A stretch of 64,000 bases of DNA. Source: Chloroflexota bacterium (GTDB lineage: Bacteria; Chloroflexota; Anaerolineae; Promineifilales; Promineifilaceae). The stretch covers positions 186,001-250,000 of the forward strand of contig JAGOMA010000001.1 of assembly GCA_017993775.1 (NCBI GenBank), written 5' to 3'. The number at the start of each line of letters is the position of its first letter. The stretch's first letter is position 1. A program made the position numbers and the translations under genes. The notes below the pieces were generated by a model. That model was given only the letters and a program-made list of their open reading frames with translations, was not told the origin of the DNA and ran no database searches. Of this stretch, positions 4,691 to 15,958 are shown piece by piece.

Positions 4691-6520
4691 TTATGGGACG
4701 TAATCGACAACCGGATAACCGGCGTCTACCCAGGCCGTGAAGCCGCTCTTCAGGCTTTGCACGTTGGTGTAACCATACGACCACAAAATGGTCATGGCGA
4801 TGGTCGAACGATGGCCGCTGCCGCAGTAAACCACGATGGGCGCATCCAAATCGGCCGGCCACATATCTTTATTGGTGATAAAGTCTTCCAAGGGGACATT
4901 CAGCCAGCGTTCCGGATCATGCTCGATAATGCCGTTCTCTTCCAATTCAGTGGCGGTACGCACGTCGATTAGAATCAGGTCGGTGTTCTCAGCCTGTGCC
5001 AGGAAAAGATCGTCGGCGCTGATGCCGCCAAACCCTTCGGGCACATTTTGCAGCATGGCGCTCATCGCCGCGACGATTGCCGGGTCTGGCTCGGCAGCGT
5101 TCAGAGCGACCAATTCGGGCAGTTCGCCTTCAGCAATGGGATACCCCGCTTCCACCCAACCACCAAAACTGCCGCCTTTCAGGCCCTTGACATTTTCCCA
5201 GCCCATCGCTTCCAGAGCGGTGAGGGCGATGGTGCAGCGCCAGCCGCTGCCACAGTAGCTGACAATGGGCGTGTCGAAACTGGGCAGATATTCGATGCTG
5301 TCGGCGACTTGTCGCAGGGGGATGTTGACAGCGTTTTCGATCCAGCCATTTTCTTCCAATTCGGCCGGTTCGCGGACGTCCAGAATATAAAGGTCGCCGC
5401 CCTCAACGATGAGCGTGTTGAGGTCTTCCAGGCCGATGGTGTTGTAGGCTTCCATGCTGCCCAGGAAAGTTTGGAAAGCGGTGTCCAGATCGGCTACCGG
5501 TTCCGGCGCGCCAATGGTGGCATAACCGGCGTCGGTCCAGGCTGCGTAGCCGCCCTTCATGCTGCGAACGTCGGTGTAGCCGTTGGCCCAGAGCATGGTC
5601 ATGGCGATGGTGGAACGATGGCCGCTGCCGCAGTAGGTGACGATGGGTGCGTCCAGGTCGGCCGGCCATTGGTCTTTGTCGGCAATGAATTGTTCCAGGG
5701 GGATGAAGGTGACATTGGGGGCGTCGATGTACCCTTTTTCTTCTACTTCGGCCGGAGTGCGGACATCAATGAGGATCAGGTCCGGGTTTTCGACCAGTTC
5801 CGTGGACAGATCATCGACGGATAGGGCGCCGAAGCCTTCGGGGATGTTTTGCAACATTTCTTGGGCGGCAGCGACGACGGCCGTCTCCGGCTGCGCGGCG
5901 TCCAATTCCACCAGGGCGGGGACTTCCCCTTCAGCGATAGGATAACCAGCTTCCACCCAACCGGCATAGCTGCCGTCTTTCAGACCCAACACATTTCCCC
6001 AGCCCATGCCTTCCAACGTTGTCAGGGCGATGGTGCAGCGCCAGCCGCTGCCACAGTAGCTGACGATGGTGGTGTCTTCGCTGGGCAGGTAGGCGATGCT
6101 GTCGGCTACCTGGCGCAGGGGAATGTTGACTGCGCCTTCGATCCAGCCGTTTTCGGCCAATTCGCCCGGTTCGCGGACATCAAGGACAAAGACGTCGCCG
6201 CCCGTCAGCATTTCGTTCAGGGCTTCAATGCCGATGGTGTTGTAGGCTTCCATGTCATCCAAAAAGACCTGGAAACCGGCGTCCAATTCGGCGATGCCTT
6301 GTTCTAACGACACTTCTTCGACCACGGGAACGGCCGTGGGTTCCGCAGTTGGCGCTTCGGTTGGAACCTCAGCGACTGTGGGTTCAACGGCCGGCTCTTC
6401 AACAACCGGCGCGGCGGCTTCTTGCACGGCCGGCTCGGTGGGCGTGGCTGCGCCGCCACAGGCGACCAGGGCCAATCCCAAAATCAGTAACAAAACAAGA
6501 AATAAACGGTGATTTTTCAT
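4691..6520 (-). CDS. Lipoprotein with four tandem rhodanese domains
   Basis: A 609-residue exported lipoprotein. The signal peptide ends in a lipobox (ALVACGG), followed by a Pro/Thr/Glu/Val-rich linker to about residue 75. Four rhodanese (sulfurtransferase) domains follow, each with an active-site cysteine loop: YCGSGWRC near residue 156, YCGSGHRS near 296, YCGSGWRC near 422 and YCGSGHRS near 565. The alternation A-B-A-B shows duplication of a two-domain unit. All four catalytic cysteines are kept, so all domains could carry persulfide sulfur outside the membrane. It has its own terminator and ends the minus-strand side of the cytochrome cluster, which hints at a sulfur-linked role. Substrate is not known. 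Confidence 0.9.
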   Translation of the reverse strand: MKNHRLFLVLLLILGLALVACGGAATPTEPAVQEAAAPVVEEPAVEPTVAEVPTEAPTAEPTAVPVVEEVSLEQGIAELDAGFQVFLDDMEAYNTIGIEALNEMLTGGDVFVLDVREPGELAENGWIEGAVNIPLRQVADSIAYLPSEDTTIVSYCGSGWRCTIALTTLEGMGWGNVLGLKDGSYAGWVEAGYPIAEGEVPALVELDAAQPETAVVAAAQEMLQNIPEGFGALSVDDLSTELVENPDLILIDVRTPAEVEEKGYIDAPNVTFIPLEQFIADKDQWPADLDAPIVTYCGSGHRSTIAMTMLWANGYTDVRSMKGGYAAWTDAGYATIGAPEPVADLDTAFQTFLGSMEAYNTIGLEDLNTLIVEGGDLYILDVREPAELEENGWIENAVNIPLRQVADSIEYLPSFDTPIVSYCGSGWRCTIALTALEAMGWENVKGLKGGSFGGWVEAGYPIAEGELPELVALNAAEPDPAIVAAMSAMLQNVPEGFGGISADDLFLAQAENTDLILIDVRTATELEENGIIEHDPERWLNVPLEDFITNKDMWPADLDAPIVVYCGSGHRSTIAMTILWSYGYTNVQSLKSGFTAWVDAGYPVVDYVP

Positions 6521-6663: not shown

Positions 6664-8226
6664 TCAAGGGGTTTGTTCCGTTGGGCTAATGATGGTTGTG
6701 GTGGTTAGGCCATCGGTGGCGGAAATGCCTTCCGTGATGGTGATGCCCACCGTAGCGGTTATCTCGGAAATGGGCGCGGGAATCATGGGTACGATGACCG
6801 GTAGATTCGCTTCCACTTCATTGGGATACACCTGATCGACAGTTAAGAACAAATCGGCATTGCCGTGGCAAGCGTTGCAGGAGGCGGCTTGCGGCGTTTC
6901 TCGCTGGATATTGTGCGGCGTGGTGTATACCCAGGTGGGCAAGGCGTTGAGATTTGGCACCAAGTTATCGCCATAAAACGCAAAGCTGTCGCTGGATATC
7001 GGCACGTGTCGGAGTGTTACGTAATCATAGGGTCTGTCGAAACTCTTTAACGGGTTCAGGCCAATTTTAAAGTCCAGGTAGGAGCCATCGGTAGCGTAGA
7101 ACGGGTTGCCGGTGGTTTCGCTGATGGCGACATGGCAGCCATCGCAGCTTGTGTAGGCGACAGAGTGGCATACCTGGCAGGAAAGATCGCCGCCGTGGAC
7201 CTGGTGCATCTCAAAACCATCCTGGCCGGTAGCGGCCGTGATGTGGCAGGATTCGCAGCGCGGCGACTGCACGCCGTCGTAGCGATGGTTGGCCGGTTCC
7301 ACCATTTGGGTTTCCGGGCTGGTGTGGCAATCCTCACAAGCGGCCGGTTGGCCGTGCATTTCGTGGCCAGTGTGGCAGTCGATGCAGGCCATGCGCCCCT
7401 GGCGGAAGTGGACGTCGGCTTGCAGGTCTTCATGTTTGCCCAGGTATTCGTTGCCCACACGGCTGCCGTGGCAGGCGGTGCAGTTGCGTGTAAGGGAGGG
7501 CGTTTTGTTGAATATGTGCCCATCAATCAGGCCACCGCCGACCAGGGCTGGCTGGCTGACATGGCAGTCGCCGCAGGTGGCATGGCAGCTTGAGCAGTGG
7601 TTGCCAAACATGGTGGCGATGGTTTCGTGGTCTTCGGGGACGGTGCGTTGGTCCAGAATGGTCCAGTAGCCGGCCAGGTTGTCGTGCAGGTTGTGTTCGT
7701 TCAGGGCAACCACATCGGGGTGGCATTCCTGGCAGTAGATTTCCGGATCGTCGCTGGGTCGGGCGATGATGTCGGTATGGGCCTCGGCTTTGTCGGCTGA
7801 TTGCCGGCCGCCGTGGCAGTTTTGGCAAGGTATCTGACCGTGAACGCTATCAGGATAGGTTTCACCGTTTACGAGTGCTTTTTCCCATGGCTCCAACGGA
7901 GCCACCGAACCGCCTCAACCTTCGCCTTCGTTTTCGCTGACGACCTCCTCGACGGGATCGGCCGTTCGGATGAGTTCGTCCTTGTTGATGTGGCAGACGA
8001 GGCACTCATCGGTGGGGAGGGGCGCGGCGTCTGTGGTGGGGGCGACGGCCGTTTCTTCGGTCGGTGTGGGAATGACGGCCGTTGGCTCCAGCCCTGTTTG
8101 CATGGCGACGACTGAATCGGTTTCGGCGCTGCTGCTGCAACTGGAAAAGAGAACGGCCGTTGCCAGAACAAGCAAAAGGCTCAATAAAATAGGTTTTGTG
8201 TATTGGATACGCTGTGCCTCTTTCAA
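6664..8226 (-). CDS. 12-heme cytochrome c lipoprotein with one in-frame TGA (candidate selenoprotein)
   Basis: Read through its single internal TGA (7915-7917), this is a protein of about 520 residues. The 5' part (8226-7918) encodes a lipoprotein signal peptide (LFSSCSSS lipobox), a TP-rich linker and one heme site, CLVCH. Just past the TGA the same frame continues at GGSVAPLEPWEK and carries eleven more CxxCH sites (CQNCH, CQECH, CSSCH, CGDCH, CTACH, CIDCH, CEDCH, CESCH, CQVCH, CDGCH, CNACH). The 3' part has no export signal of its own and its first possible start, GTG 7905, has no good ribosome site and sits inside a hairpin. Heme attachment occurs only after export, so read-through is needed for function. 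Alternatives are a recent nonsense mutation or a base error. It diverges from the LysR gene. Confidence 0.75.
7888..7904 (-). promoter_or_regulatory. SECIS-like hairpin downstream of in-frame TGA
   Basis: In the mRNA sense, a perfect 7-bp stem UGGCUCC / GGAGCCA with loop GUU begins 11 bases after the TGA. The loop G is 18 bases after the TGA. Bacterial SECIS elements typically have the loop 16-37 bases after UGA, a stem of at least 4 bp and a G among the first two loop bases, so the geometry fits. No SelB binding evidence can be read from DNA alone. Confidence 0.5.
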
Positions 8227-8446: not shown

Positions 8447-9388
8447 ATGCTGGATGCGCACCAATTAAATGTATTTTTAGAAGCGGCTGACGCCCTGAGT
8501 TTTACCCAGGCAGCGCAGCGGCTACACATGACACAGCCGAGTGTAAGCCAGCATATACAGACACTGGAGCAGCATTTTGGCGTCCCGTTGTTTAATCGGG
8601 TGGGGCGGTACATAGAATTAACGGATGCCGGGCAAGCATTGCTGCCGTTGGCCAGAGAATTGGTTACGCGTTCGGTGCATATCGAAGAGACGATGAAATC
8701 ATTGGAAGGCGAGGTGTATGGGCATTTGTTGGTTGGGTGCAGCACGACGCCGGGAAAATATGTTTTGCCGAGCTTGTTGGCCAATTTCCACCGCCGTTAC
8801 CCCAAGGTGCGGGTTTCTTGCCATGTGGCGTCGCAAGATCACGCCTTGCAGATGGTATGTGATGGCGAGGTGCATTTCGCCTTGGCGAGTGTGCCGCACA
8901 TGGTGTGTAAAGATGTGGAGTTTCGCCAATTTATGACCGATGAGGTCATTTTGTTGGCGCCACTAGGCCATCCGTGGGCTAATCGGGGAGAAATTGAGCC
9001 GGAAGAGCTGCTGGAAGCGGAATTTATTCTGCGGGAAGAGAGTTCTGGCACGTATACGGCCGTGCGTGAAGCCCTGTCTGGCGTCGGCATCGATATTGAG
9101 CAGTTGGATACGATTTTGGTTTTGGGCAATGCGGAAGCCATTGCTCTGGCTGTGCAAGAAGGGTTGGGGCTGGGCTTTGTTTCCAGCATCGTTTACACGC
9201 GGTTGGTGCAGGACAGCGTTGCCCCCATCAAAGTGCGCGGATTGTCCATCCAACGCGAAATTTACCTGGGTTGTCACACTCGGCGACCACCAACGCTGGC
9301 TCAGGCGGCCTTCTGGGCGCTCATTGGAGACAACTACGAACTCAATGTACTTGGCCTGGAAGCGAACCAACAGAGAGATAACGAGTAA
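8447..9388 (+). CDS. LysR family transcriptional regulator
   Basis: A 313-residue LysR-type regulator. The N-terminal winged helix-turn-helix is clear (residues about 17-40, FTQAAQRLHMTQPSVSQHIQ), followed by a periplasmic-binding-like effector domain in which TTPGKYVLPSLLANFHRRYP is typical of the family. GGAGG is 7 bases before the ATG. It diverges from the 12-heme cytochrome and its stop is only 13 bp before the 8-heme cytochrome start, so it is probably co-transcribed with and controls both sides of the cytochrome cluster. The family regulates sulfur, nitrogen and carbon assimilation genes; the effector here cannot be told. Confidence 0.93.
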   Translation: MLDAHQLNVFLEAADALSFTQAAQRLHMTQPSVSQHIQTLEQHFGVPLFNRVGRYIELTDAGQALLPLARELVTRSVHIEETMKSLEGEVYGHLLVGCSTTPGKYVLPSLLANFHRRYPKVRVSCHVASQDHALQMVCDGEVHFALASVPHMVCKDVEFRQFMTDEVILLAPLGHPWANRGEIEPEELLEAEFILREESSGTYTAVREALSGVGIDIEQLDTILVLGNAEAIALAVQEGLGLGFVSSIVYTRLVQDSVAPIKVRGLSIQREIYLGCHTRRPPTLAQAAFWALIGDNYELNVLGLEANQQRDNE

Positions 9389-9401: not shown

Positions 9402-10430
9402 ATGAGATGTTTGCGACTTTCTATCAACTGGTCGCTGTTAAGCGGGGTTTTGGTAGGCTTGCTGGGTATGGTTATGACCGTTCACTTGGCTTCGGCCGCG
9501 CCCATGCAGCAAGAGGGTAATGGCGAGGTCATCGAAGAGCATGAGACGCAGAAGGCGTGTCAGGAATGTCATTTGGATGTAAAAAGCCATTGGCAAGACA
9601 GCCCGCACGCCCATGCGTTTGATGATCCTTATTTTCAGCAACAGTGGGTTGGTTTGGGGCAGCCAGGCGAGTGTTTGTCCTGTCATACCACCAATTACCA
9701 GCCGGCAAACGGTCAATATGACGCCGAGGGTATCGCCTGCGAGGCGTGCCACGGAGAAGTGACTGGCGAGCACCCACCCGAAGTAGTTTCTATCAAAGCC
9801 GATACCGAATATTGCGGCACGTGCCATACCACCACATTGGGCGAGTGGCACCAGACAAGCCATGCAACGGCCGAAATCGGTTGTATGGATTGCCATGATC
9901 CCCACAGCCAGCAGCCATTGTTTGATGTGGCCGATGATTTGTGCATCAACTGTCACAAAGACTCCATGGAAGCGTATTTAGAAGATTTGCATGTGCAACA
10001 AGGGATTGGGTGCGTAGATTGCCATGCGCTGGTGGTGCCGCCGGATGAAATTCCGGTCGATGGCATTGTGCCAACGGGTCATGCCTTTAGCATTACGCCG
10101 GCAACTTGCGTGGCCTGCCACACGGACGCTTTACACGCGGGATTCCATTTGCCCGGTTATGAAGATGGAGCCAAAGCGGCCGCCAACGGAGATGAACCGG
10201 CGCCGGTTCTGCTGCAAGCTGCGGAAGCTCCTCAACAAGAGGGAATGCTGACGCACGATCAGCAAATCCAGGCGTTGGAAACGGCGCTTGCCAGCCAGAA
10301 TGTCACGCTGATCTTTCAGGGTGGGCTGGTTGGGCTGGCCCTGGGCGGCACTACGGCCTGGTTTGTGTCGCAAAATATTCGGGCGCGTGAATTGGAGAAG
10401 AAAAATGACGACGACAAACCAGAAGAATAA
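9402..10430 (+). CDS. 8-heme cytochrome c with C-terminal membrane anchor
   Basis: A 342-residue exported protein. The signal peptide is residues 1-32 (hydrophobic GVLVGLLGMVMTVHLASAA). Eight heme sites follow in order: CQECH, CLSCH, CEACH, CGTCH, CMDCH, CINCH, CVDCH, CVACH. A hydrophobic segment near residues 305-328 (LIFQGGLVGLALGGTTAWFV) and a positive tail anchor it to the membrane. The ATG at 9402 is chosen because GAGG lies 8 bases before it and the signal peptide starts there, although the frame is open much further upstream over the lysR gene. Its 3' end overlaps the ferredoxin gene by 26 bp. With the next two genes it forms a cytochrome-NrfC-NrfD unit, known from several membrane quinol-linked complexes. 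Confidence 0.92.
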   Translation: MRCLRLSINWSLLSGVLVGLLGMVMTVHLASAAPMQQEGNGEVIEEHETQKACQECHLDVKSHWQDSPHAHAFDDPYFQQQWVGLGQPGECLSCHTTNYQPANGQYDAEGIACEACHGEVTGEHPPEVVSIKADTEYCGTCHTTTLGEWHQTSHATAEIGCMDCHDPHSQQPLFDVADDLCINCHKDSMEAYLEDLHVQQGIGCVDCHALVVPPDEIPVDGIVPTGHAFSITPATCVACHTDALHAGFHLPGYEDGAKAAANGDEPAPVLLQAAEAPQQEGMLTHDQQIQALETALASQNVTLIFQGGLVGLALGGTTAWFVSQNIRARELEKKNDDDKPEE

Positions 10431-11226
10431 GACGTCGCCAATGTTAACCCGGCGTGATGTATTAAAAATTGCGGGAGCAACGGGCGGGGCGATTCTCCTG
10501 TCGCGGGCGTTTACGTCTGGCCCACTTTCAGCCGATTCAATTTCAGGTTTGGCGCGTACAACTCATGCCAGTGCGGCGCATGAGTGGCATATGGGCATTG
10601 ATTTGGAAAAGTGCATTGGCTGCCAGTACTGTTTGTGGGCTTGCCAGGCAACGAATGACGTGCCGGATGATGAGATGCGTTGGAATGTAGGGTTTCCAGA
10701 GCGGACCGAAAATGGCACGGATTTTTTCATGACACGGCCGTGTCTCCATTGCCAGGAAGCGCCCTGCACCAAAGTTTGCCCGGTCGGCGCGACCTGGGTG
10801 CGTGAAGATGGCATTGTGGCCATGGATTACGATCGGTGTATTGGCTGTCGATACTGTGAGGTGGCTTGCCCGTACGACGTACGGCGGTTTAATTGGGATG
10901 TGGCTACCGCTGAAAATCCTTACCAGCCTACTTGGGGAGAGCCAGAAATAGCGCGACGGCCGCGTGGCGTGGTGGAAAAGTGTACCTTCTGCGTGCATCG
11001 GATCGATCGGGGGCTTGAACAGGGCTTAACCCCGGGGGTCGATCCGCAGGCAACGCCAGCCTGCGTGAACGTATGCCCGGTAGGCGCGCGTGTTTTTGGC
11101 GATGTGCGCGATCCGCAAAGCCCGATCACCCAATTCCTGGCCGAACATGACACCTTCCGTTTACGGGAAGATTTTGGCACCGAGCCAAAGGTGCATTACG
11201 TGCGCCCGGCTAAGGAGGAGATATAA
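10405..11226 (+). CDS. Tat-exported four-cluster ferredoxin subunit (NrfC/DmsB-like)
   Basis: A 273-residue iron-sulfur subunit. The N-terminus has a twin-arginine signal (LTRRDVLKIAGATGG). Four cysteine groups for four [4Fe-4S] clusters follow: CIGCQYCLWACQ, CLHCQEAPCTKVCP, CIGCRYCEVACP and CTFCVHR with a later CVNVCP. In NrfC, DmsB and PsrB relatives this subunit carries electrons between a membrane quinol site and an exported catalytic or cytochrome subunit. The start at 10405 has GGAG 9 bases upstream; a second ATG at 10441 lacks a good site. It overlaps the preceding cytochrome and is followed 1 bp later by the nrfD-like gene. No molybdopterin catalytic subunit is present in the cluster, so the partner is probably the multiheme protein. 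Confidence 0.93.
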   Translation: MTTTNQKNKTSPMLTRRDVLKIAGATGGAILLSRAFTSGPLSADSISGLARTTHASAAHEWHMGIDLEKCIGCQYCLWACQATNDVPDDEMRWNVGFPERTENGTDFFMTRPCLHCQEAPCTKVCPVGATWVREDGIVAMDYDRCIGCRYCEVACPYDVRRFNWDVATAENPYQPTWGEPEIARRPRGVVEKCTFCVHRIDRGLEQGLTPGVDPQATPACVNVCPVGARVFGDVRDPQSPITQFLAEHDTFRLREDFGTEPKVHYVRPAKEEI

Positions 11227-11227
11227 G

Positions 11228-12445
11228 ATGGCTGCGGGTCAGGTAGCTATGCAAAAACCCAGTCGTTGGCCGATGCGTCTATGGTATCTTACTCTAGGCG
11301 TCATGTTATTGGTGGGAGTGTATGGCATGTTCCAAACCTTGTGGTTTGGTCTGTCGGTGACAAACCTGACCGATCAGGTGCCGTGGGGGTTGTGGATTAC
11401 ATTAGATTTGTCGGCGATTGCTTTGGGGGCTGGGGCGTTTACGTTTTCGGCCGTGGTGTATCTGTTTCGTTTGAAGCGATTTGAGCCAGTGGCGCGGGTG
11501 GCAGTCTTTGTTGGATTTTTGGGATATTCGTCGGCGATGTTGGCGTTGGCCATGGACATCGGCCGGCCGGATCGGTTTTATCACCCACTGATTTATTGGA
11601 ATGTCCATTCGGTGCTTTGGGAGATCACGCTGTGCGTGATTTTGTACTCAACGGTACTGATTATTGAGTTTGTGCCAATTGTGTTGGAGAGCCGATTTTT
11701 TGACGGCCGTTATCGGGCGCGGGCATTTGGCCATATGCTGCACAAACTGACACCCGTTATGGCGGCTATTGGTTTAGGACTATCCCTGCTGCACCAATCA
11801 TCTCTGGGGGCAACATATGGGGTGCTGTCGGGGCGCGAAATTTGGTTCAAGCCATCCATGCCGGTCTTGTTTATTCTATCGGCGATAGCCGGCGGGGTTT
11901 CTTTGACCTTGTTGGTTACGCTTGTGGTGAGCAAACTGTCGGGGCGCGAGCTAATCGACAAATTTTTGCGCCGTGATATTGCCCGTTTGGCGGCATTTGC
12001 CCTGCTGGCATATCTCTATCTGAAAATGTGGGATTGGGCGGCCACGTCTTATTACAGCCATGCGCCGGGAACGGCCGATGCGCTACTTCGCCTGCAAGCG
12101 ACAACACCATATACGCAATCGTTTTGGATCATCGAAGTTTTTCTGGGAATTTTGGTTCCGGTGGTTATTTTGTTGAATCGGCCGCTGCGCCGGCAAACCG
12201 GACTGTTGATTTTGGCGTTGGTTTTGGTCATTGTCGGTGTGGTTGTAAATCGTTGGAACGTAACGTTGTCTGGTCTGACAGTTCCGCCGCAGTGGTCGCC
12301 GGGAGTTTTAGGCAACGTGGTTGCGACGCCCTATTTTCCATCAATAATTGAAGTGTGCGTTGCGCTAGGGATTTTAGCGTATGCCTTGCTGGCGCTAACC
12401 CTGGGCTTAAAGTATTTACCGTTGTTTAACAAATCTGACGAGTAA
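11228..12445 (+). CDS. NrfD/PsrC-family membrane subunit
   Basis: A 405-residue polytopic protein of the NrfD/polysulfide reductase PsrC family, with about ten membrane helices. The family exchanges electrons with menaquinol or menaquinone and in some complexes moves protons. The DIGRPDRFYHPLIYWNVHS segment near residue 110 and the SLLHQSSLGATYGVL segment near 190 are typical of the family. AAGGAGG is 9-10 bases before the ATG. It is the last gene before a strong terminator, so genes 9402-12445 form one unit, perhaps with lysR. The direction of electron flow (quinol oxidation or quinone reduction) cannot be read from sequence. Confidence 0.93.
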   Translation: MAAGQVAMQKPSRWPMRLWYLTLGVMLLVGVYGMFQTLWFGLSVTNLTDQVPWGLWITLDLSAIALGAGAFTFSAVVYLFRLKRFEPVARVAVFVGFLGYSSAMLALAMDIGRPDRFYHPLIYWNVHSVLWEITLCVILYSTVLIIEFVPIVLESRFFDGRYRARAFGHMLHKLTPVMAAIGLGLSLLHQSSLGATYGVLSGREIWFKPSMPVLFILSAIAGGVSLTLLVTLVVSKLSGRELIDKFLRRDIARLAAFALLAYLYLKMWDWAATSYYSHAPGTADALLRLQATTPYTQSFWIIEVFLGILVPVVILLNRPLRRQTGLLILALVLVIVGVVVNRWNVTLSGLTVPPQWSPGVLGNVVATPYFPSIIEVCVALGILAYALLALTLGLKYLPLFNKSDE

Positions 12446-12472
12446 CCGCTCATTTCCTTCAAAAGAGTAATA

Positions 12473-12507
12473 GACGGCCCGATCTGCCACAGATCGGGCC
12501 GTTTTTG
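12473..12507 (+). terminator. Rho-independent terminator after the nrfD-like gene
   Basis: ACGGCCCGATCTG and CAGATCGGGCCGT form a 13-bp stem with a short CA/CC loop, followed by T5. It lies about 28 bp after the nrfD-like stop. Confidence 0.9.
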
Positions 12508-12650
12508 TGTGGTTGGCGGGCAGGAATTTGGGGGCGGGCGGGGGTGGAACGGCCGTTTTTTCTTCACCCGTCGCCACTCGAGGTCAGCCAACTTTTCCTG
12601 TCGTATAGCAAGAAAAGACTTGTCATTTTCCTGAATATTAGAGTAAGATT

Positions 12651-12760
12651 AACCCCATTGGGGAATCACCCTATTCCTCAATGGGGGATTCTACCCATAC
12701 AAATGGGTAGGATCTTGGGAGTAGTGGGGTTTGTAACCCATTGCACGTGACCTTTGTCAC
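12651..12760. promoter_or_regulatory. Cluster of small dyads upstream of the collagen-stalk cytochrome
   Basis: The gene-free stretch 12508-12891 holds several close dyads: CCCCATTGGGG (12653-12663), a hairpin at 12687-12714 with CTACCCAT / ATGGGTAG arms, and GTGAC-CTTT-GTCAC at 12747-12760, which resembles a CRP/FNR-type half-site pair. They lie 130-240 bp before the start codon, where operators and a promoter for the second cytochrome unit would be expected. No clear -35/-10 pair was assigned. Confidence 0.4.
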
Positions 12761-12891
12761 TAGCAGATGATAGGTTGGCCAATATACTTAACACACATAC
12801 TTCCTCAAAATGGGTTTATGTGAAGATGTTTGTTTAAAGGCAGATTCAGATGCAAAGAATGAGACGATTTTTGAGAACAAGGAAGGGGATC

Positions 12892-14133
12892 ATGCGTAAA
12901 CCATGGGGGTTTGTAGTATTTATTTTAGTACTTTCCTTGCTCGTAGTTGGTTGTGCAGGCGCGAGTGGTGAGCAAGGTCCGATTGGGCCGGAAGGCCCAC
13001 AAGGCCCTCCGGGACCAACAGGTCGCGATGGTCTGCCGGGCGCACCCGGCCCAGCTGGCGCCGATGGTCTCAATTATGAGCCACCGACTTTCATCGGAAG
13101 CGGAGCTTGCGCCGAATGTCATCAGGATTTATTCGAACAGTTTGCCGCCAGTGGCCATAATCACCCATTAACCAAAGTTGTGAATGGTGAAGCGCCAACA
13201 TTCCCCTTTACCAATGTTACGAATCCGCCAGAAGGGTACACCTGGGACGATATTAGTTATGTGGTTGGCGGGTATAACTGGAAAGCTCAGTTCGTTGATA
13301 GCAATGGATACCTGATTACCGGGGAAGCTGTTCAGTTAAACGTGAATGATGGTAATGATTGGGTGGCCTATCATGCTGGCGAGGAAAAGCCGTATGATTG
13401 CGCGACCTGTCATGCGACCGGTTATACACCGAGTGGTAATCAGGATAATTTACCCGGTATTGTCGGGACCTGGGCTTTTGAAGGCGTGCAATGTGAAGAA
13501 TGTCACGGCGCAGGCAGTGCCCATGCCAATCATCCAATGTCTTTTGAGATGAAAGTAGATCGCACGTCTGGTGCTTGCAGTGATTGTCATTCACGAGGCG
13601 CCGGGCAGGAACTGGTGATTGCTGACGGCTTCATTCAGCATCAAGACACCTATGGTGATCTTTTCCAGGGCAAACATGCGGTTATTGATTGTGTTGTTTG
13701 CCATGACCCGCATACTGGTGTCGTCCAGCTCGATAACGCCAAAGAAGCCACCACGCAGACGGCCTGCCAGGACTGCCATTTTGACCAGACGAAGGTGCAG
13801 AACGTTGGTGTTCATACGCGGGTGGGCGTTGATTGTGTAGATTGCCACATGCCATACCTTATTCAAAATGCTGTGGCAAATGCGGTGATGAATACAGGTG
13901 ACGTTCGGACGCACATGGTTTCGATTGCTGCCACCCAAATTACGCAGTTCTCGGAGGATGGCTCGACGGCCAACCCGCAATTGGGTCTGGATTTTACTTG
14001 TAGAGGTTGCCACAACCCAGATGGCAGTGCAACAGTCAAGACAGATGAAGAGTTGTTGACTGCCGCGAATGGATACCATACCTTGCAACCGGCCGAAACT
14101 GAACCTACTCCGGAACCGGCTACGACTAATTGA
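12892..14133 (+). CDS. 8-heme cytochrome c lipoprotein with collagen-like stalk
   Basis: A 413-residue lipoprotein. A signal peptide with lipobox (LLVVGCAG) is followed by about eleven uninterrupted Gly-X-Y triplets (residues about 25-57, such as [13 protein letters not shown]), a collagen-like segment that normally trimerises into a rod. The rest carries eight heme sites (CAECH, CATCH, CEECH, CSDCH, CVVCH, CQDCH, CVDCH, CRGCH). The ATG at 12892 is preferred over 12850 because GGAAGGGG precedes it and it begins the signal peptide. A Thr/Glu/Pro tail ends the protein. The stalk would lift the heme domain off the membrane. It opens the second half of the cytochrome cluster. Confidence 0.9.
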
Positions 14134-14266
14134 TGAATCTTCTTTCGAATAGTCAGTCTACAAACATGAATTGGCCGCATCGAATGCGCGGACTCAAAAG
14201 TATGACACAATTTCTATTCTCAGTAACCGGTGATCTACTGGTGATCAAAGATGCAAGGAGGCTTCG

Positions 14267-15958
14267 TTGAAGCAATTTAATCGAGCCTGTCGATTTGCTC
14301 TTGGCACAGGCGGCATCTGGGTTTTATTTCTGATTCTGGGCGGGTTGTTGGCGTTATCATCAACGCAAACGTACGCTGCGGCTGACTCGCCAGAACAGGT
14401 CATTCTTGGATCCTCGGTGGAAAACCAGGCAGCCTCTCTTCTCCCGCTATCTTTTCAAGAACCGGGCACGAACAGCCACCCGGCGACGGATTTTGCGTGT
14501 AAATCTTGTCATAGTGACACAACGGCCGTTATCGAATTCCCTTCTGGCGAGACAGTGTCGGCGCAAGTGGATTTGGCTGTGCTGGCATTGTCGGTACACG
14601 GCAATCAATTAGAAAGCCCGCTGGTCTGTACAGATTGTCACCAAACGATCAATGATTATCAGTTTCCCCATACGCCATTAGACAGCACGGATTTGCGGGC
14701 ATATCAGGTTGCCCAGGCCGCAACATGTGAGCGCTGCCATCAGCAGACACATATCACCAGCCATCCTGGTGATGATGCGGCTATGCCCGTTACCTGCACC
14801 GATTGTCATGGTTCTCATGACGTGCATACCGCAGAAGCGTGGGATTCGGCTGAAGCTGTTGATCGCTGTGTGAATTGTCATGTAAAAGAAGAGGTTGAGC
14901 TAAATCAAGCGGATCAATTATTGCCGCTGATTCGGAGCGGTTTGTTTACCGATGAGCCGAATTCAGATTACTGCCTCGCCTGTCATAGTCAGCCGGACCG
15001 TGTCAAGATTTTCCCCAATGGCGACATGGTATCCCTGACAATTGACAAAGATGCCTTCCACGCATCGGTCCACGGTATGAACAATTCGTGGCAGGCCCTC
15101 GAATGTAACGATTGTCACCAAAATCATATTTTCCCCCACCAACCAACAGAAACAGAAAGCGCCCGCGACTTTACAATTGCCATGAACAGCGCTTGTCAAG
15201 ATTGTCATGTGCAGTTCTTCGATAGAGCGATGGACAGTGTGCATGGAGCCGCGCTGCAAGACGGGAATACAGACGCGGCCGTTTGCACAGATTGCCATGG
15301 CGCGCATGATACACCTGTACCGGGTGTGCCTCGGTCGGCTATTTCGCATACCTGTGAAAAATGCCACAGCACCATATTTAATGAGTACGCAGAAAGTGTG
15401 CATGGCAGCGCGTTGTTGGAAGACGATAATCCTGACGTGCCAACTTGTATCGATTGTCACGGCGTGCATGACATCCATGATCCCACGACAGCTCAAGCGC
15501 GCGAGCGATCACCAGAATTGTGTGCAAAGTGCCATGCTGATTATGAGTTGATGACGAAATATGAGATTTCCACGAACGTGTTTGATTCGTACGTCAGTGA
15601 TTTTCATGGCACGACGGTGATGTTGTTCGAAAATGAGGGTTCCGATGTACCGCCGAATACGGCCGTTTGTTACGACTGTCACGGCGTCCACAATATCAAA
15701 TCACCCAGTGATCCAGACGCCGGTATTCAACAAAACCTGATCGAAACGTGTCGGCAGTGTCATCCAGATGCCCAGCCCAACTTTGCGGGCGCCTGGCTCA
15801 GCCACTATACGCCATCCTTGCAAAATTATCCCGTTATCTTCCTGGTAGACCTTTTCTATAAAATTGTCATTCCACTCACCTTAGGCTTTTTCTCCTTGAT
15901 GGTAGGAACGGATATTTACCGTCGGGTTCGTATGCGGCTTCGGAAAAACAAGGCTTAG
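14267..15958 (+). CDS. 14-heme cytochrome c with C-terminal membrane helix
   Basis: A 563-residue exported cytochrome. The N-terminal signal segment is residues 12-38 (ends TQTYAAAD). Fourteen CxxCH sites follow: CKSCH, CTDCH, CERCH, CTDCH, CVNCH, CLACH, CNDCH, CQDCH, CTDCH, CEKCH, CIDCH, CAKCH, CYDCH and CRQCH. Two repeats of a unit with FPSGE or FPNGD, then SVHG, then C.DCH and FPH, show internal duplication. A membrane helix near residues 525-548 and a basic tail anchor the C-terminus inside. The start is TTG at 14267, with AAGGAGG 5-6 bases upstream. It is followed 63 bp later by a cytochrome b gene, its likely quinol-side partner. Confidence 0.92.
   Translation: MKQFNRACRFALGTGGIWVLFLILGGLLALSSTQTYAAADSPEQVILGSSVENQAASLLPLSFQEPGTNSHPATDFACKSCHSDTTAVIEFPSGETVSAQVDLAVLALSVHGNQLESPLVCTDCHQTINDYQFPHTPLDSTDLRAYQVAQAATCERCHQQTHITSHPGDDAAMPVTCTDCHGSHDVHTAEAWDSAEAVDRCVNCHVKEEVELNQADQLLPLIRSGLFTDEPNSDYCLACHSQPDRVKIFPNGDMVSLTIDKDAFHASVHGMNNSWQALECNDCHQNHIFPHQPTETESARDFTIAMNSACQDCHVQFFDRAMDSVHGAALQDGNTDAAVCTDCHGAHDTPVPGVPRSAISHTCEKCHSTIFNEYAESVHGSALLEDDNPDVPTCIDCHGVHDIHDPTTAQARERSPELCAKCHADYELMTKYEISTNVFDSYVSDFHGTTVMLFENEGSDVPPNTAVCYDCHGVHNIKSPSDPDAGIQQNLIETCRQCHPDAQPNFAGAWLSHYTPSLQNYPVIFLVDLFYKIVIPLTLGFFSLMVGTDIYRRVRMRLRKNKA

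Follow-up and report, generated by a model that had tools for sequence, protein, structure and literature searches.

The locus described here raises the question of whether an in-frame TGA in a gene for a multiheme cytochrome c ends a short lipoprotein or is decoded as selenocysteine (Sec), so that a single long cytochrome is produced. We analysed it within a 64,000-nucleotide stretch of DNA from a Chloroflexota bacterium (the window), to whose numbering coordinates refer unless another sequence is named. We consider it very likely that this is a genuine selenoprotein gene in which the UGA at 7915-7917 is decoded as Sec, a conclusion that is inferred from sequence and for which there is no peptide evidence.

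An in-frame TGA in a cytochrome reading frame

The gene lies on the minus strand (6664..8226). According to the reading of the frame, it extends from a TTG start codon at 8226 to a terminal TGA stop at 6664-6666, and when translated through the internal TGA it encodes 520 amino acids with 12 CxxCH motifs. The N-terminal part consists of a lipoprotein signal, with its predicted end at the lipidation residue Cys30 (LFSSC; 8137..8139, minus strand; Cys30 is present in at least 90% of the aligned homologues), a low-complexity linker, and heme motif 1 (CLVCH, residues 75-79; 7990..8004, minus strand), which is the sole CxxCH upstream of the internal TGA. The latter is codon 104 (7915..7917, minus strand), and past it the same frame runs for 416 codons to the terminal stop. 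This second part (6667..7914, minus strand) carries eleven more CxxCH motifs and has no signal peptide of its own. With 12 CxxCH motifs and a lipoprotein export signal, the product meets what is expected of a multiheme c-type cytochrome, and no other TGA-interrupted frame of similar length in the window has CxxCH on both sides. A sequence-only reading made before this analysis had described the frame, its coordinates and motifs, as well as a 3' half without an export signal, and all of this held; its count of 410 codons after the TGA was slightly off.

We then examined whether the TGA is shared by relatives. A first sample of 59 relatives contained 16 homologues that reached the site, and TGA was present in 16/16. 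When one genome per species was scanned, 80 loci were found, every one from Chloroflexota records, and surveys of the phylum (400 genomes) and the class (396 genomes) added more. After removal of duplicates, 147 distinct sequences spanned the site, and in 140 of them TGA occupies this very position; among these are the sequences of the cultured species Bellilinea caldifistulae and Thermanaerothrix daxensis. Profile matches were found in 78 of the 396 sampled genomes of the class, nearly all with the in-frame TGA; the TGA and the hairpin described below recur at this place in homologues from the class and from outside it. Phyla outside Chloroflexota were not sampled directly, so absence of the family from them is not implied. 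The glycines flanking the TGA are near-invariant (G-1 in 140/140 and G-3 in 139/140 homologues), defining the motif G-x-G-U-[GA]-G.

A recent nonsense mutation or a base-calling error in one genome, which the sequence-only reading had left as a possibility, would account for the TGA without Sec. Nothing supports this explanation beyond the stop codon itself, and it is excluded by the occurrence of the same TGA in 140 distinct homologues, two cultured isolates included.

A hairpin under selection and the selenium machinery

The putative SECIS element is the hairpin GTGGCTCC-GTT-GGAGCCAT (7887..7905, minus strand). Its stem begins at the 11th base after the TGA and is formed by 7 Watson-Crick pairs (T+GGCTCC / GGAGCC+A) enclosing a GTT loop, as had been proposed from the window sequence, and 17 bases separate the TGA from the loop G. 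Positions 7865-7920 fold with a free energy of -23.6 kcal/mol (z = -3.4), and 0/200 shuffles were as good.

Among the 140 TGA homologues, the codons that form the hairpin are nearly fixed: Pro+6 is CCG in 135/135, Leu+7 is TTG in 130/133, and Glu+8 is GAG in 138/140, compared with a top codon share of 0.37-0.70 in equally conserved Pro and Leu columns elsewhere. Third-position identity is 0.71 in codons +1 to +9 versus 0.36-0.39 elsewhere. Stem pair 15-27 is G-C in 84 homologues and C-G in 54, and it is paired in 139/140, against a shuffle mean of 73 and a maximum of 92; pair 14-28 is paired in 137, against a shuffle maximum of 128. The loop is GTT in 131/140. Since these shuffles ignore relatedness, they provide strong evidence and not exact probabilities. 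The frozen synonymous sites and the compensatory stem pair show that the hairpin is under selection at the RNA level. Bacterial SECIS elements are stem-loops located directly 3' of the UGA with a small, G-containing apical loop (PMC1088965; PMC9312934), and the hairpin satisfies this description in its position, its small loop with a G, and its covarying stem.

The same genome, a 6.0-Mb assembly, contains a tRNA-Sec with anticodon UCA (64.8 bits, above the family cut-off), selB (342 bits), selA (561 bits) and selD (370 bits). Hence, as in bacterial selenoproteins generally (UGA, SECIS and SelABCD), all the genetic parts are present. Moreover, selD carries its own in-frame TGA in the active-site motif ASCAG-U-ASK; therefore, at least one further selenoprotein gene, and a well known one, is present. 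The selD hairpin, folded as an in-genome reference, adopted a shape of its own and was unusable as a template. The selD gene is located at C31:49694-50644 of its own genome (L198 108-1244, minus strand), and the selD matches of four other genomes tested also have one TGA each. The search for selA, selB, selC (tRNA-Sec) and selD that the sequence-only reading had proposed as a check thus came out in favour of Sec, and its interpretation of the site as a Sec candidate held, given the conserved TGA and hairpin and the Sec genes.

The co-occurrence of selB with the cytochrome gene was considered as discriminating evidence and rejected. Across the class, selB was found in 309/396 genomes; it was present in 65/76 genomes with the cytochrome gene and in 242/318 of the rest (p = 0.09). 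Co-occurrence is barely higher with the cytochrome gene because the Sec trait is common in the class.

Homologues without the TGA and the role of the residue

Seven of the 147 distinct homologues have a sense codon in place of the TGA: Trp (TGG) in L050, L068 and L166, Leu in L149, His in L150, Val in L156, and Phe in L151. On a FastTree tree with a midpoint root, Sec is ancestral and about six changes have occurred. In six of the seven, the GTT loop has been lost and/or stem pairs no longer form in that register; in L166 (Trp), which has a very short branch, the stem is still formed. The genomes of most non-Sec homologues retain selA and/or selB, so the loss of Sec in the protein does not track loss of the machinery. 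Genome G657, the source of L151, carries the gene twice on a single contig, once with TGA and once with Phe at the site; the Phe copy is longer (873 aa, 21 CxxCH).

In 7/7 of these homologues a single open frame runs from upstream of heme 1 through the site, which indicates that the joined polypeptide is the functional product. This bears on the possibility of two proteins, in which translation really ends at the TGA and the 3' part arises by re-initiation at a GTG or TTG a few codons on. In support of re-initiation, GTG or TTG occupies codon +4 in 120/140 homologues, and the post-TGA bases GAGGNGG could resemble a ribosome-binding site. However, GTC, CTG or TTA also occur at codon +4, and the distance to the first in-frame ATG downstream varies from 6 to about 99 codons. 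A separate 3' part, with about 11 c-heme motifs, would be without an export signal, and re-initiation predicts neither the compensatory stem changes nor the joined protein that the seven homologues encode with sense codons. We regard it as very unlikely.

Cys was not found at the Sec position in any of the 147 distinct homologues; the alignment of homologues, which was to reveal Cys or TGA at the site, returned TGA in 140/147 and Cys in none. The expectation of the sequence-only reading that Sec usually replaces Cys fails here, since the substitutes are W, W, W, L, H, V and F. Almost all known selenoprotein families have Cys homologues (PMC9312934), and, unlike most of them, this family has none that we could find. 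The lack of a Cys exchange is unusual for a catalytic Sec. Either the chemistry depends on selenium as such, or some lineages can do without the residue and the UGA acts as a switch. A bolder reading, to which we lean slightly against giving credence, is that Sec has a function which Cys is unable to take over; this could be, for example, chalcogen transfer that is specific to Se and coupled to a 12-heme wire, or a selenium-dependent translational switch. If this reading were true, loss of Sec would take the site straight to bulky or unrelated residues.

The same substitutions are relevant to another alternative, namely that the UGA is read through with a different residue, e.g., Trp, or serves as a selenium-sensing switch whose residue is chemically unimportant. 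In the switch form, the UGA and the SECIS would set the ratio of short to full-length product; this rivals a catalytic role and is compatible with Sec insertion. The substitutes, which are never Cys, suggest that the site tolerates non-redox residues, and TGG is one base from TGA. On the other hand, the UGA has been kept in 140/147 homologues although substitution is possible, the flanking glycines are near-invariant, as for a working site, and the hairpin fits SelB-dependent Sec insertion. To our knowledge, no stem-loop serves Trp read-through. This alternative is, in our view, unlikely.

Exactly one CxxCH precedes the TGA in 131/131 homologues with both frame ends, and full-length homologues have mostly 10 to 14 CxxCH. 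Eleven CxxCH are invariant, as are eleven histidines outside them; because these numbers match, bis-His ligation of the constant hemes is possible without Sec. The sequence-only reading had suggested a heme-ligating Sec, and this was not borne out: according to the count of conserved histidines such a ligand is not needed, though it is not excluded. A redox or substrate-binding role of Sec is probably a better account than heme ligation, its function being inferred. Pfam detected only the generic heme repeats PF14537 and PF14522 above their gathering scores, and no NCBIfam model exceeded its cut-off for the Sec cytochrome. The AlphaFold model was weak (mean pLDDT 66.7), also next to Sec, with residues 105-109 below 50; a PDB fold search with it gave no informative match to a solved fold, and a PDB sequence search returned weak heme-motif matches alone.

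Genomic neighbourhood and relation to known cytochromes

Just downstream of the cytochrome gene lies a partner gene (4691..6520, minus strand) encoding a four-rhodanese lipoprotein (PF00581 x4, 202 bits), which adjoins the cytochrome in 76/80 loci; several of the loci without a partner are short contigs. This protein has alternating active sites, CGSGWRC and CGSGHRS. It also matches NF041203, the model for a rhodanese-related (seleno)protein, with 128 bits (cut-off 115); it passes the cut-off but has Cys active sites. Two loci (L027 and L028) have a rhodanese-like segment in frame upstream of the Sec cytochrome. In these two, which belong to a second family, the frame also extends downstream, where it adds two CxxCH and what is probably a membrane anchor.

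Divergent from the cytochrome gene is a LysR-type regulator (8447..9388, plus strand), found in 71/80 loci. Its best model is NF040786, the selenium metabolism-associated LysR (229 bits, under the cut-off of 250), and a sub-cut-off best match to this model was likewise obtained in three relatives. A redox gene cluster (9459-15958, plus strand) adjoins the Sec cytochrome and encodes multiheme cytochromes (9459-10430, 12850-14133 and 14267-15958), a QrcC/DsrO-like iron-sulfur protein (10405-11226; DsrO model 204 bits, cut-off 200) and a QrcD-like NrfD membrane protein (11150-12445), all on the plus strand. A module of multiheme and QrcC/QrcD-like iron-sulfur and membrane proteins is present in about 30/80 loci.

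In the mechanism that we propose, the hairpin at 7887-7905 would direct SelB and tRNA-Sec to decode the UGA at 7915-7917 as Sec, and the product would be a single exported, lipid-anchored 12-heme c-type cytochrome in which Sec lies between hemes 1 and 2, in a glycine-rich segment. The mature cytochrome would be outside the membrane, where its heme chain may trade electrons with a quinone-linked or other partner, and a chalcogen substrate (sulfane sulfur, polysulfide or selenite) would be handled jointly by Sec and the rhodanese persulfide. Such extracytoplasmic sulfur/selenium redox chemistry with the rhodanese is drawn from the gene neighbourhood alone, and we put it forward only tentatively, as an idea that we would not yet call probable.

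A comparable system is ExtKL of Geobacter, a predicted Sec cytochrome of the extHIJKLMNOPQS cluster (PMC5877670; PMC13188914); this cluster has been linked to the reduction of selenite and tellurite, and it also encodes the rhodanese-like protein ExtH (PMC5877670). By analogy, both are multiheme c-type cytochromes with a predicted Sec and a rhodanese nearby; homology has not been shown. In contrast to ExtKL, with 5 hemes, members of the window family have mostly 10-14, and the ExtKL cluster differs in having porin, Rieske and cytochrome b genes too. The NF040886 (ExtKL) model gave no match at E <= 10 for five queries, including the window protein and three relatives, and other Ext cytochrome models matched some relatives far below cut-off. 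The octaheme tetrathionate reductase family cytochrome (TIGR04315) has a Sec-annotated member (PMC13188914); it is named for 8 hemes, versus 12 CxxCH in the window protein. This model matched 2/16 relatives (best E 1.2e-5) and not the window protein, and none of the matches was above cut-off. The DmsE family decaheme (TIGR03508; 20.9 bits versus a cut-off of 192 bits) and NrfA-type cytochromes show a weak likeness over the heme repeats.

No earlier description of a Sec cytochrome of the window family was found in the literature searched, which left subscription journals mostly outside. We consider it very likely that this is a new, overlooked family of selenoproteins that joins the few Sec multiheme cytochromes already known, and an unusual one in that no Cys counterpart was found. 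The finding holds and is wider than the single gene first noted, since it concerns a whole overlooked family. Annotation pipelines are expected to split such genes in two, and published selenoprotein searches rely on Sec/Cys pairs; the authors of deep-Sep note that selenoproteins lacking Cys homologues may escape their method (PMC12013277). The family would thus represent unrecognised, widespread selenoproteins in the class, and would connect selenium with multiheme electron transfer and the chemistry of rhodaneses in Chloroflexota, with two cultured species that make it testable now.
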